From Prevotella histicola JCM 15637 = DNF00424 (GTDB taxonomy: Bacteria > Bacteroidota > Bacteroidia > Bacteroidales > Bacteroidaceae): 64,000 nt of DNA. Positions 17,029 to 62,969 of this stretch are shown here, piece after piece. Position 1 is the first letter of the stretch. Every line of letters begins with the position of its first letter. The position numbers and the translations under genes are program-made. The stretch spans positions 1 to 64,000 of the forward strand of contig NZ_BAJX01000013.1 of the NCBI RefSeq assembly GCF_000613925.1, written 5' to 3'. The notes under the pieces are model-generated. The model searched no databases, was not told where the DNA came from, and worked only from the letters and a program-made list of their open reading frames with translations.

Positions 17029-17138
17029 AAAAGACGCCCTTTTACGTTGCAAAAGGGCGTCTTTTACACCTCAAAAGGGCATCTTTTACATCGCAAAAGG
17101 GCACCTTTTACAATGCAAAAGGGCGTCTTTTATTTTCC
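17029..17138. repeat. 22-bp-period A-tract array, AAAAGGGCGTCTTTT family (5 units)
   Basis: Five exact 22-bp units start at 17029, 17051, 17073, 17095 and 17117. Cores in order are GACGCCC, GGGCGTC, GGGCATC, GGGCACC and GGGCGTC, each between AAAA and TTTT. Units 1 and 2 form a perfect hairpin with a 17-bp stem and an ACGTTGC loop. It lies between the divergent men promoter and doxX. The remaining sequence of this 730-bp gap shows no other gene. Confidence 0.88.
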
Positions 17139-23403: not shown

Positions 23404-23513
23404 AAAAGGGCGTCTTTTGCATTCTAAAAGACGCCCTTTTGCGATGTAAAAGATGCCCTTTTACCATGCAAAAGGGCACCTTTTGAGAGTCAAAAGATGC
23501 CCTTTTGTTTTGC
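23404..23513. repeat. 22-bp-period A-tract array between fbaB and the calcium ATPase (5 units)
   Basis: Units at 23404, 23426, 23448, 23470 and 23492. Cores: GGGCGTC, GACGCCC, GATGCCC, GGGCACC, GATGCCC, each flanked by AAAA and TTTT. Units 1-2 form one hairpin; units 3-4 form another with the loop ACCATGC, the same loop as in the array at 40432. The rest of the convergent 550-bp gap shows only the fbaB terminator. Confidence 0.88.
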
Positions 23514-39406: not shown

Positions 39407-40243
39407 ATGAAGAAAATAATTTTATTGGCAATATTAGCCGTAGTATCTTTTACTGCTAAGGCACAAGATACTAAGCCATACGAGGAGAAGATGGCTAAAC
39501 TTGAGAGTGCTTTTAAGGAACTTGAGGATGCATATCACAGTTTTTCAAAACGTGATCCAGCTACTTTCACTGATGCAGAGAAAGCTCAATTGAATCAAAT
39601 CATGGTGAAAGCAGATTCGTTAGACTCTGTTCAGACTGCAACAGCATTGGAGATTGCAGAAAAGTTCAAGACTACAAAGTTCCCTGCAAGGTATCTTGCA
39701 GATGTTATGTACAACTTGGAATATGACCAATTGAAGCAGCTTTGCGATCCATCAACGGGTTATTACAATGAGCCGGGTATGGAGAAAGTGAAGAAACTGC
39801 TTGCTTCTTATGAGTTGCGTCACCCAGGACTGATGTACAAGGAGCTTACTATGGAGGATCTTAATGGCAAGCAAGTGAAGCTCAGTGACTGGGTTGGAAA
39901 GGGCAAATATGTCTTTGTTGACTTCTGGGCAAGCTGGTGTGGTCCATGCCGTAAGGAGATGCCGAATGTTGTTGAGGCATATAATCGCTACAAAAACAAA
40001 GGACTTGAGATTGTTGGTGTAAGCTTTGACAGCAATAAGTTACAGTGGTCTGCTGCTGTTGAGAAGCTTGGTATGACCTGGCCTCAGATGTCTGACCTCA
40101 AAGGTTGGGAGTGTGCAGCTGCTAAGGTGTATGGTATTCGTAGTATTCCTTCTAACATTCTTATTGATCCACAGGGCAAAATCGTTGCTATGGACTTAAG
40201 AGGAAGCAAGCTGCAGACGGTACTTGCTGAGTTGATAAAGTAG
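39407..40243 (+). CDS. TlpA/ResA-like periplasmic thioredoxin
   Basis: A 278-residue exported protein. Signal peptide residues 1-19 (ending AKA-QDT), a helical N-terminal domain (about 20-135) and a thioredoxin fold with active site WCGPC (Cys178 and Cys181) in VDFWASWCGPCRKEMPNVVEAY. The cis-proline region is GIRSIPSNILIDPQG. Such proteins keep periplasmic thiols reduced or handle disulfides, often for cytochrome maturation. Single gene with its own promoter motif and terminator. Confidence 0.88.
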   Translation: MKKIILLAILAVVSFTAKAQDTKPYEEKMAKLESAFKELEDAYHSFSKRDPATFTDAEKAQLNQIMVKADSLDSVQTATALEIAEKFKTTKFPARYLADVMYNLEYDQLKQLCDPSTGYYNEPGMEKVKKLLASYELRHPGLMYKELTMEDLNGKQVKLSDWVGKGKYVFVDFWASWCGPCRKEMPNVVEAYNRYKNKGLEIVGVSFDSNKLQWSAAVEKLGMTWPQMSDLKGWECAAAKVYGIRSIPSNILIDPQGKIVAMDLRGSKLQTVLAELIK

Positions 40244-40266
40244 GGGATAGCCCCTTTAAAAATATG

Positions 40267-40308
40267 AAAGGTATCAAAGGATTCGTCCTTTGGTACCTTT
40301 TTCTTTTG
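40267..40308 (+). terminator. Terminator of the TlpA-like gene
   Basis: A stem AAAGGTATCAAAGGA / TCCTTTGGTACCTTT closed by a stable TTCG tetraloop and followed by TTCTTTTG. Confidence 0.8.
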
Positions 40309-40431
40309 TCTTTCCTCTTGCTCGGAAAAGTCTTTACAGATAAAAATGTGACTGAATGCCGAATGGAAAGAAAACCTTTCTTTTTTAGGTTTGTAATCTC
40401 TTGACTGATAAATAGTTATGAATAGGGTTGT

Positions 40432-40541
40432 AAAAGATGCCCTTTTGCAGTTTAAAAGACGCCCTTTTGAAGCATAAAAGGTGCCCTTTTACCATGCAAA
40501 AGGGCACCTTTTATGCTTCAAAAGGGCGTCTTTTAAATCCG
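40432..40541. repeat. 22-bp-period A-tract array with a perfect 40-bp-arm inverted repeat (5 units)
   Basis: Units at 40432, 40454, 40476, 40498 and 40520. Cores: GATGCCC, GACGCCC, GGTGCCC, GGGCACC, GGGCGTC. Units 2-3 and 4-5 form a perfect inverted repeat: left arm 40451-40490, 7-base loop ACCATGC (40491-40497), right arm 40498-40537. Even the spacers are complementary (GAAGCAT/ATGCTTC). It lies between convergent genes. Confidence 0.9.
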
Positions 40542-40613
40542 TTATGCGAATTTATATGACATAAAAGTCATTCCTTCTTTAGTTTCTTTGTGGTGGAGTC
40601 GTTATCATACAGA

Positions 40614-41554
40614 CTATAGAAGCCACCACATGTAAGCCACGAAGACAGCTGTGAGAACGGCTCCCTCCCATCGTTCGATGGTACTTCTTGTAAAAGAGAA
40701 GAACCAAATGAGAATCATGGAGACAACCATTACAGACAGGTCTGTTGTCGTTATGCCCTTTATTGTCATAGGCTGATGAGTCCAGTCACGCCTAAGATGG
40801 CAAGAATGTTGAAGACATTAGATCCTAAGACATTGCCAATGGCAATCCCACTGTTTCCTTTTCGTGCTGACACCACGCTTGTTGCCAGCTCAGGAAGTGA
40901 TGTTCCACCAGCCACAATCGTCAGTCCGATGACAGCTTCTGACACCCCTAGCTGTGCTGCAACCTGTGTTGCACCTTCCACAAAGAGGTTACTTCCACCT
41001 ATCAGGCATGCTAAACCAATGATGATCCATACGGCAGACATGGTTGCTGACATAGGTTTCTTCTCTGTTTTTATGTCTGAAGATTCTTCTTGCAGTTCTG
41101 TTTTACTACTCTTTGCACCGTGTAAGGTAATATACATGAAGGCTATGAACATTACGAAAAGCGTTGCAGCATCAAGCCGACTGATATGTCCATCAAGGCA
41201 CATGATCATCAATACGATTGAAGCTACCAATGCAAAAGGAATGTCTTTGCTGATAGTTACCCTCGTAATAGCCATGGGAGCAACCATAGCTGATACTCCA
41301 ACAATCAACAGAGCATTGAAGATGTTCGAACCAACAATGTTTCCTACAGCCAAGTCGGGTGTACCTTTGAGAGCCGATACCAGGCTGACACAGAACTCGG
41401 GCATGCTGGTTCCCATTGCAACTATTGTTAATCCAATCACAATCTGTGGCATCTTTAGCTTTTCAGCCACGGCTACTGCACCCTCTGTCAGTCGGTCCGC
41501 ACCCCATAAAACGAGGCTTATTCCCACGAGAATAAAGACAATGTTTAGAAGCAT
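40614..41554 (-). CDS. Calcium/sodium antiporter (CaCA, YrbG-like), frameshifted near the C-terminus
   Basis: Two inverted CaCA repeats are intact: VIGLTIVAMGTSMPEFCVSLVSALKG..GNIVGSNIFNALLIVG and VIGLTIVAGGTSLPELATSVVSARKG..GNVLGSNVFNILAILG. The frame as written stops at 40766 after LGVTGLISL. Restoring one C at 40771-40772 (CCC read as CC on the coding strand) gives LISPMTIKGITTTDLSVMVVSMILIWFF..AVFVAYMWWLL and a stop at 40614-40616. That is the expected last helices of the family, for about 313 residues. The protein exchanges calcium for sodium across the inner membrane. Confidence 0.88.
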
Positions 41555-45540: not shown

Positions 45541-45584
45541 AATCTATCGTCTTTTACATTCTAAAAGAGCATCTTTTAGAATGG
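45541..45584. repeat. Degenerate 22-bp-period A-tract array (2 units)
   Basis: Units at 45541 (diverged) and 45563 (AAAAGAGCATCTTTT) in strict 22-bp phase, between the convergent queF and lipoprotein genes. It looks like an eroded copy of the larger arrays. Confidence 0.6.
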
Positions 45585-57906: not shown

Positions 57907-58020
57907 ATGCGTAAAGAGGATGCTTCTTATGTGGAATATACTTTACATTTGATTTTCTCATTATAGCTTTTTCCTGCCTTTCTTTATACCTTAAAATCGG
58001 TTAGATATGACCTTATAGGG

Positions 58021-58196
58021 AAAAAGTATATACCTTTTCGGCAAAAAGTATATACTTTTCAGTCAAAAAGTATATACTTTTCAGGCAAAACGATAGTACT
58101 TTTTGGGCAAAACGATAGTACTTTTTGCCTAAAATGATAGTACTTTTTACCTAAAACGATAGTACTTTTTGCTTAAAACGATAGTACTTTTCTGAA
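58021..58196. repeat. 22-bp-period A-tract array with GTATATAC and GATAGTAC cores (8 units)
   Basis: Eight strict 22-bp units from 58021. Units 1-3 have AAAAAGTATATACTTTT; units 4-8 have AAAACGATAGTACTTTTT. The core differs entirely from the GGGCGTC arrays but the 22-bp spacing and the A-tract/T-tract frame are the same. Units within each sub-block are almost identical, showing recent local duplication. It lies downstream of the LRR gene. Confidence 0.9.
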
Positions 58197-58500
58197 AACA
58201 GCTTAGTTCGTTCTGTTAGAAAGTATGCATGATTTCTGTAAACCGTTGGATATCAATTGCTTACAAAAACATAGCGTTAAACCGCCCAAAACGGGAGTAT
58301 TTGACCGTAAATATACCCTTTGTGAATAGCACCGTCAGAATGATAGTCGGAATTAACAATATTCTATTACAAAATACTTCCCTACGGTTTATGCGGACAT
58401 TCCTCATGAATCGTCGCCGTTCTCTCGGTCCGCTGATTGCGCTGAGCATACTTTTTAGCTGACGAGCAGCGTATTTCAATGCCCTAATGTCTTTATACTT
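58197..58500. other. Non-coding segment of unknown origin, more GC-rich than its surroundings
   Basis: The stretch between the repeat array and the phosphatase promoter is open in several frames on both strands (58229-58462 plus, 58261-58527 minus) without a promoter, ribosome-binding site or recognisable domain. Its base composition (GGTCCGCTGATTGCGCTGAG, TCGTCGCCG) contrasts with the A/T-rich flanks. The author has a weak memory of similar segments recurring in Prevotella intergenic regions. It is listed as a possible dispersed repeat or RNA, not a gene. Confidence 0.3.
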
Positions 58501-59940: not shown

Positions 59941-59962
59941 TGATGTTTTCTCATTTCTGATG

Positions 59963-60360
59963 TGGACCTGGTGGGAGTCGAACCCACGTCCGCACAAGGA
60001 AACCATACGCTTTCTACACGTTTATTCCAGACTTTGGTTTTCGTATGTCGGCAAGACCTGGACCACCAACCGACATCTTATCCTCTAAATCTTCATCAGT
60101 GCAGCGAGGCATACACTGACTATTTCCGATTGAACCTGCATCGCTTACTCTCCGGATTCGGAACAACATCCTCGGAGCGATGTCTCGTTCAGCTATCTAA
60201 TAGCCGAATAAAGCCAGTAACCTACTGTACTTCGGTTAGGCAGCGAGAGCGTAATTGTTTTCGCCAATTAATTGTTTGATAGCTGATATTTAGGAGCAAA
60301 CTAACGACGCTCCGCGTGCTTACGTACCATTTCGTCTTGCCGTCAAATCCAAACAAGCCC
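59963..60360 (-). ncRNA. ssrA: Transfer-messenger RNA (tmRNA), tag GENNYALAA
   Basis: The minus strand begins GGGCTTGTTTGGATTTGACGG at 60360 and ends CGGACGTGGGTTCGACTCC.. CAGGTCCA at 59963, forming the tRNA-like acceptor and T arms; GGGCTTG pairs with CAGGTCC with G-U pairs. The tag frame at 60265-60236 reads GGC GAA AAC AAT TAC GCT CTC GCT GCC TAA, GENNYALAA. CCA is not encoded. It releases stalled ribosomes and tags unfinished proteins for proteolysis. The 35 bp before the 5' end up to the promoter probably include a leader removed by processing. Confidence 0.96.
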
Positions 60361-62859: not shown

Positions 62860-62969
62860 AATAGGTGCCTTTTTGCGTTGTAAAAGACGCCCTTTTGCAT
62901 TGTAAAAGATGCCCTTTTGACATGCAAAAGGTGCCCTTTTAAACTTCAAAAGGGCACCTTTTAGAATGC
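62860..62969. repeat. 22-bp-period A-tract array upstream of the HEPN-MNT pair (5 units)
   Basis: Units at 62860 (diverged, AATAGGTGCCTTTTT), 62882, 62904, 62926 and 62948. Cores: GGTGCC, GACGCCC, GATGCCC, GGTGCCC, GGGCACC. Units 4-5 make a perfect hairpin around AAACTTC. It lies between mfd (ending 63071) and the MNT gene, same strand. The rest of the gap shows only the promoter at 62694. Confidence 0.86.

Follow-up and report, generated by a model that had tools for sequence, protein, structure and literature searches.

The locus and its inverted repeat

The window is the whole stretch of DNA that was analyzed, 64,000 nucleotides in length. It contains a TlpA/AhpC-like gene (39407-40243, plus strand), which is followed by a convergent Na/Ca exchanger gene. 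Between the two genes lies one copy of a repeated element with a perfect inverted repeat inside it (Table 1). The upstream gene has its own terminator-like hairpin outside the element. A terminator scan of 40150-40750 retrieved that hairpin (40266-40301) and a second site at 40668-40681, and it retrieved none at the array of short units that holds the inverted repeat. The array does not have the G+C-rich stem and following T run of an intrinsic terminator. The initial annotation had placed the inverted repeat between convergent genes, past a separate terminator of the plus-strand gene, and this placement holds.

The exchanger open reading frame (ORF; 40766-41554, minus strand) ends early, and its C-terminal part runs on in another frame to 40612. 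This suggests a one-base frameshift near 40770, either real or a sequencing error. A tmRNA gene is present at 59962-60360 on the minus strand. It was the sole match to Rfam at gathering thresholds in the whole window.

An inverted-repeat search recovered the two arms at the coordinates first given for them. They are complementary at 40 of 40 positions (100%) and are separated by a 7-nt loop, ACCATGC. They lie in an array of five AAAAG-RYGCC-CTTTT units, whose central five bases are referred to below as words. The spacers between units had been described as 6 to 7 bp; all are 7 bp in this array. The loop sequence does recur in the array at 23404, as had been noted. The match means little, because ACCATGC and its complement GCATGGT make up 19 of 240 spacers and are among the commoner ones.

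Table 1. Features of the locus and other copies of the element in the window
Feature	Position	Strand	Basis
Terminator-like hairpin of upstream gene, outside element	40266..40301	+	Terminator scan
Whole dispersed element, 237 bp	40325..40561	-	Terminal motifs; layout from 63 elements
Terminal motif, palindrome/tail side, consensus TTTGTAAGATTATTTC	40325..40341	-	
Companion palindrome GTAAC-N3-TTGATTATC-N5-GTTAC, degenerate copy	40390..40419	-	Read by eye; family pattern
Unit AAAAGATGCCCTTTT	40432..40446	+	
Left arm of perfect inverted repeat	40451..40490	.	Inverted-repeat search
Unit AAAAGACGCCCTTTT, within left arm	40454..40468	+	
Unit AAAAGGTGCCCTTTT, within left arm	40476..40490	+	
Right arm of perfect inverted repeat	40498..40537	.	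Inverted-repeat search
Unit AAAAGGTGCCCTTTT, within right arm	40498..40512	-	
Unit AAAAGACGCCCTTTT, within right arm; outermost, probably the copied one	40520..40534	-	
Terminal motif, array side, consensus TGTAAAATAAATTC	40548..40561	-	
Five-unit array, another copy	17029..17131	-	
Five-unit array, another copy	23404..23506	+	
Two-unit remnant	45541..45577	+	
22-bp array with other words (58005-58192), then same kind of palindrome (58234-58268)	58005..58268	+	
Five-unit array, another copy	62860..62962	+	

A dispersed intergenic element

The perfect inverted repeat lies within one copy of a dispersed intergenic Prevotella element. The layout was read from an alignment of 63 elements, each with at least four units, away from the ends of the sampled stretches and set in one direction. 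An array-side terminal motif (TTTTGTAAAATAAATTC) comes first in all of them and is followed by the array, the palindrome (TTTGTAAC-N3-TTGAT..GTTACAAA), the AT-rich tail, and finally the other terminal motif (TTTGTAAGATTATTTC). The array usually consists of five 15-bp units at a 22-bp pitch, each in either orientation. The median length was 238 bp (range, 216 to 240 bp) in the 36 of 63 elements with both ends recognized. The spacers vary, but conservation of the unit positions is 91 to 100%, the R and Y of the word excepted, in the four units on the palindrome side. Read directly, A-tracts lie 11 bp apart in the array, and AAAAG/CTTTT inverted repeats flank every word and every gap between units. 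The terminal motifs are direct repeats, not inverted ones, in the source genome (G000). Those of one element are slightly more alike than swapped pairs (9.72 versus 9.32 of 14; P = 0.002).

The genome (2.95 Mb in 55 contigs) contains 631 exact units, 309 forward and 322 reverse; the reversed control gave 0. Further counts come from an 864-kb sample made up of the window and 40 stretches of 20 kb. This sample contained 70 clusters: 54 with five units, 6 with six, 4 with four, 3 with three, 1 with two, and 2 with one; stretch ends truncate some of the short clusters. None of the 70 was off register. Successive frames were 22 (166 cases), 44 (7 cases), or 66 bp (1 case) apart, with no other distance up to 80 bp, and 238 of the 247 AAAAG-N5-CTTTT frames were inside arrays. 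By extrapolation rather than by count, there are roughly 190 to 230 elements in this genome.

In the 864-kb sample, a profile of the palindrome half matched 116 times close to an array and 7 times elsewhere. Two of the 7 are the same place (L004:8298-8415), with no array recognized adjacent, and others adjoin degenerate or other-word units. The array at 58005-58268 has eight units of TATATA and GATAG types, which make up a second family of words in G000.

Among the 67 clusters with at least three units, 62 were intergenic, 1 overlapped an ORF, and 4 were at stretch edges. The 62 located elements lie between 32 convergent, 25 codirectional, and 5 divergent gene pairs; the background, from the same ORF-scoring gene calls, was 87, 512, and 92 pairs, respectively. 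With each element counted as one pair, the enrichment of convergent over divergent pairs gave a Fisher P of 2e-7. Most elements follow the 3' end of a gene, with a preference for convergent pairs.

The variable base pairs of the words, in 208 exact frames, were AT (76), AC (74), GT (57), and GC (1). The word GCGCC thus occurred once in 208, versus about 21 expected with independent positions, and it is one transition away from two common words. Restriction avoidance of GGCGCC was rejected as the cause of this scarcity; that site is only mildly rare (23 observed versus 37.9 expected). The number of distinct words per four units was slightly above that in shuffles (2.58 versus 2.43; P = 0.0135).

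Origin of the exact arms

Exact repeats and spacers had been called unlikely by chance. Among the 60 arrays of five or more units, this locus alone has a perfect arm above 20 bp, and the longest elsewhere was 20 bp. Units and spacers were shuffled position by position in the whole set of 60, and 213 of 20,000 shuffles yielded arms that took in two units and a spacer. Pooled random draws gave 0.007 such arrays per 60. The case for chance is that words and spacers are few, so that some array somewhere bears a perfect arm. With three words and a limited set of spacers (113 distinct among 255), matches are far likelier than in random DNA. Over the roughly 200 arrays in the genome, the overall chance comes to a few percent, which makes a P of about 0.01 per 60 modest evidence. 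We nevertheless consider chance improbable, given the shuffles and the spacers of the arms. GAAGCAT and its complement ATGCTTC occur once each among 240 spacers, both in the array at 40432-40534. A pair of singletons confined to the locus is consistent with one arm having been copied. An exact outermost unit is seen in 10 of 60 arrays; the present array is among these, and here the unit complements an inner one.

The initial annotation left a choice between copying of one arm from the other and selection for a long hairpin. A selected hairpin would be an RNA stem acting as a terminator or stabilizer, or else a cruciform, and would be kept perfect for that reason. The segment 40426-40560 folds strongly as RNA (-76.4 kcal/mol; z = -14) and as DNA (-52; z = -13.3), and it lies between convergent genes. 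However, it is the sole such array among 60. The other 59 arrays had a mean RNA folding energy of -45.73 on one strand, versus -47.07 (standard deviation, 0.72) when shuffled within positions, and 38 of 40 shuffled sets were as low or lower. Hairpin selection is thus unsupported, because the other arrays fold no better than shuffles and, if anything, worse. Inverted neighbors with the same word were not enriched (38 versus 33.9 expected; P = 0.22), and the terminator-like site is the separate one upstream. We consider a selected hairpin decidedly improbable. In this one genome of the species, the exact symmetry most likely arose by copying one arm from the other and not from a need for a hairpin. 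Of the two readings first offered, copying is supported by the singleton spacers and the exact outermost unit, and hairpin selection is not supported by the folding and neighbor tests.

The arrays carry wider traces of the same kind. Neighboring units had the same orientation in 151 cases versus 120.4 expected, and 0 of 2,000 shuffles were as high. Spacer direction tracks the flanking units (score, 45 versus 20.4; P = 0.0007). Orientation blocks with spacers that flip along are what block inversion by template switching would leave. A replication fork could switch template within the array, since words and gaps alike lie between AAAAG/CTTTT inverted repeats. Such a switch would invert blocks in register and homogenize facing arms. 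One event most likely copied 40454-40490 into 40498-40534, yielding the 40-bp arms; the three flanking bases of the arms would match by chance. We infer both the template switching and the direction of copying.

Template switching between inverted repeats is described as homogenizing arms and inverting spacers (PMC8604942), and it is described as able to produce a perfect stem in one event (PMC8794818). The present locus resembles such quasipalindrome mutations in that exact complementary arms and inverted spacers would come from imperfect inverted repeats. It differs in that the accounts given there concern yeast coding DNA and RNA genes, not the present element (PMC8604942, PMC8794818).

The clearest locus shared with another species (G003) bears on the pace of inversion. 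Its copy L208 is 85.8% identical over 710 bp to L007 and 81.5% identical over 665 bp to L003, both from G000. Word order and orientation are conserved in all three, and the changes are point changes, so block inversion is not fast. In the three pairs, 8, 6, and 10 of 81 columns differ in the array, 33, 46, and 31 of 164 on the tail side, and 8, 16, and 16 of 104 in the other flank. A smaller share of columns differs in the array than on the tail side, but the other flank is about as similar, so these counts do not cleanly show constraint on the array. A further recurrent sequence, translated LKVTATKN in all three, lies near these arrays and is possibly another repeat family.

A site-specific recombinase that inverts AAAAG-to-CTTTT segments, as in a shufflon with very short sites, would also change orientation in blocks, flip the spacers along, and always keep register. 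Inversion alone, however, is unable to make two complementary copies of a rare spacer. Orientation is also conserved at the shared locus, and five-base sites would be exceptional. We regard a recombinase as very improbable, and copying by template switching is preferred.

Relatives, known repeats, and possible function

The exact unit is nearly absent elsewhere. Among 59 other genomes, four copies each were retrieved from G003, G004, and G026 and one each from G010 and G044. A search of 398 genomes of the genus for the layout with free words on a 22-bp pitch recovered it from 38, a tally that apparently includes G000. The reversed control was empty in nearly all; the exceptions were G334, G368, and G385, each with 8 to 15 matches, and G084, G148, and G355, each with one or two. 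The array-rich genomes each use their own core words. Outside the genus, the tally was 2 of 295 genomes, with G580 alone among the matches listed.

The companion palindrome alone, with at most 2 mismatches, was found in 74 of 200 genomes. For 20 palindromes picked irrespective of arrays, 28 lags were compared, and a lag of 22 ranked first around 11 of them. By eye, 12 of the 20 have an array and 8 do not, and the frames differ from AAAAG/CTTTT in some species. GTAAC..GTTAC palindromes without an array were seen in L244 (353-379) and L245. The one in L244 lies just past a tRNA-Ser gene, on its 3' side, where it may mark an integration site; L245 yielded no tRNA gene.

Two relatives, G170 and G156, were compared. 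A G170 stretch with degenerate units of the same words (L214:349-581) matched at least 38 places in G156 at 72 to 78% identity, among the 40 of 292 candidates that were scored. A locus shared by the two is 98.8% identical over 853 bp, and one word differs by a single transition. G170 does not have the outer units of the array, and its flank differs from that in G156, which may reflect deletion or rearrangement. A scan of approximately 1.2 kb downstream of the TlpA-like gene in each of 10 named relatives retrieved neither an exact frame nor a unit with up to 2 mismatches. The search for strain comparison gave 0 matches in viral contigs and none in phage and plasmid records.

The closest published relative is PINSR, a 188-bp intergenic noncoding repeat of Prevotella intermedia, two strains of which have 177 and 184 copies (Naito et al. 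2015; PMC4755523). PINSR is reported also downstream of tnaA and without terminal inverted repeats. About three quarters of the sites are common to P. intermedia strains OMA14 and 17. It is placed only in the P. intermedia/nigrescens group, with negative PCR in P. veroralis and P. denticola, and section 3.4 of that paper describes no 22-bp array (PMC4755523). A relative, G108, has an element of the present layout downstream of tnaA. Its length is 188 bp when taken from TTTGTAA to TTTACA and 186 bp with TGTAA as the first end, which agrees with PINSR within the uncertainty of the ends. The terminal motifs of the G108 copies are inverted, whereas PINSR is reported to have no terminal inverted repeats. 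G017, whose tnaA product is very similar, has no such element within 600 bp downstream of tnaA.

The P. histicola element is, like PINSR, intergenic, noncoding, and present in well over 100 copies. Its direct terminal motifs fit the reported absence of terminal inverted repeats, but the inverted motifs of the G108 copies do not. It differs in its length of 237 to 238 bp and in its core words. It is filed as PINSR-like and not as PINSR, because the median in G000 is 238 bp versus 188 bp. We assign it to the same kind as this published relative by way of the G108 element, which has its layout and agrees with PINSR in length and place, rather than by consensus letters. The comparison suggests that PINSR is one local form of a family that is spread through Prevotella with species-specific word sets. 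A literature search for PINSR and Prevotella retrieved the paper of Naito et al. alone. No description of a 22-bp layout with swapped words was found in the literature search, which is not proof of its absence.

Repetitive extragenic palindromes (REPs) and BIMEs of Escherichia coli are likewise extragenic, of high copy number, and in both orientations, and they favor 3' ends and convergent pairs (PMC1525189). REPs are defined as palindromes of 20 to 40 bp with a GTAG or CGTC tag (PMC3733652). The present units differ, being 15 bp at a 22-bp pitch with AAAAG/CTTTT ends and with no GTAG or CGTC tag seen by eye. A search for RAYT transposases (Y1_Tnp, PF01797) gave 0 matches in G000, a draft that is 95% complete, and found them in 5 of 14 control genomes.

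The BrickBuilt miniature inverted-repeat transposable element (MITE) of Porphyromonas gingivalis is also intergenic, with an internal tandem array of about 22 to 23 nt and a distinct leader and tail (PMC4596501). It is described as having 1 to 22.8 copies of a 23-nt direct repeat and IS5-like terminal inverted repeats, with 19 copies per genome, in P. gingivalis and P. gulae only (PMC4596501). The present element has instead a 22-bp pitch, usually five units in both orientations, and no terminal inverted repeats in G000.

A classical MITE, in which the 22-bp units would be transposase binding sites and the arms a by-product of transposition, would account for an element that is dispersed, bounded, intergenic, and about 238 bp long. 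Its patchiness among species and its absence at the TlpA-like locus of the 10 relatives also fit, as does a DDE transposase gene (PF13612) in the flanks of 2 of 30 arrays (L072 and L076). Those 30 arrays were drawn from the genus-wide layout search. Few of their neighboring ORFs were alike, however, and no common companion gene emerged; the recurring neighbors checked were purH-like (L096 and L098), the DDE transposase, and an MFS transporter (L076). The G000 elements have direct terminal motifs where inverted ones would be expected of a MITE or BrickBuilt, and the 36 elements whose two ends were recognized showed no target-site duplication (P = 0.87). The lack of a Y1 transposase domain in G000 also counts against a MITE, and we consider this origin unlikely. 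An ORF end at the contig start in L003 (1-300), about 110 bp upstream of the array, looks by eye like a DDE transposase C terminus; it had no Pfam match. A modular element of the PINSR kind, with arms copied by template switching, is the joint explanation that we favor as probable.

The function of the copies may lie in protein binding. The E. coli IHF consensus is WATCAANNNNTTR. It was perfect in 27 of 63 palindrome windows and had one mismatch in 23; control windows had 0 of 63 perfect and shuffles 0.4%. These are predicted sites by an E. coli consensus, and the window's own palindrome copy is degenerate. The genome gave 8 matches to HU/IHF-family genes. Phased A-tracts and an IHF-like palindrome would serve the binding of HU/IHF-type proteins. 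Conserved units beside variable spacers are in favor of binding sites, and so is the locus shared with G003, where the array has a lower share of changed columns than the tail side. E. coli REPs are reported to bind IHF and gyrase (PMC1525189). As a tentative guess, by analogy with E. coli BIMEs, each 3' intergenic copy may be a chromosome-structuring site that is bound by HU/IHF-type proteins. A bolder and rather doubtful extension would make the elements genus-wide docking sites. Their layout of 22-bp pitch, A-tract frame, companion palindrome, and terminal motifs would be fixed, each species would have its own few core words at many loci for a DNA-binding factor of changing specificity, and template switching would reshuffle and invert the words within each array.

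The striking perfect palindrome is explained without a hairpin function. The locus is a clear example that is consistent with arm homogenization by copying. If a protein reads the words, about a thousand sites in the genome would form a large DNA-recognition system that varies between species. Such a system, if true, would sit in a major human-associated genus.
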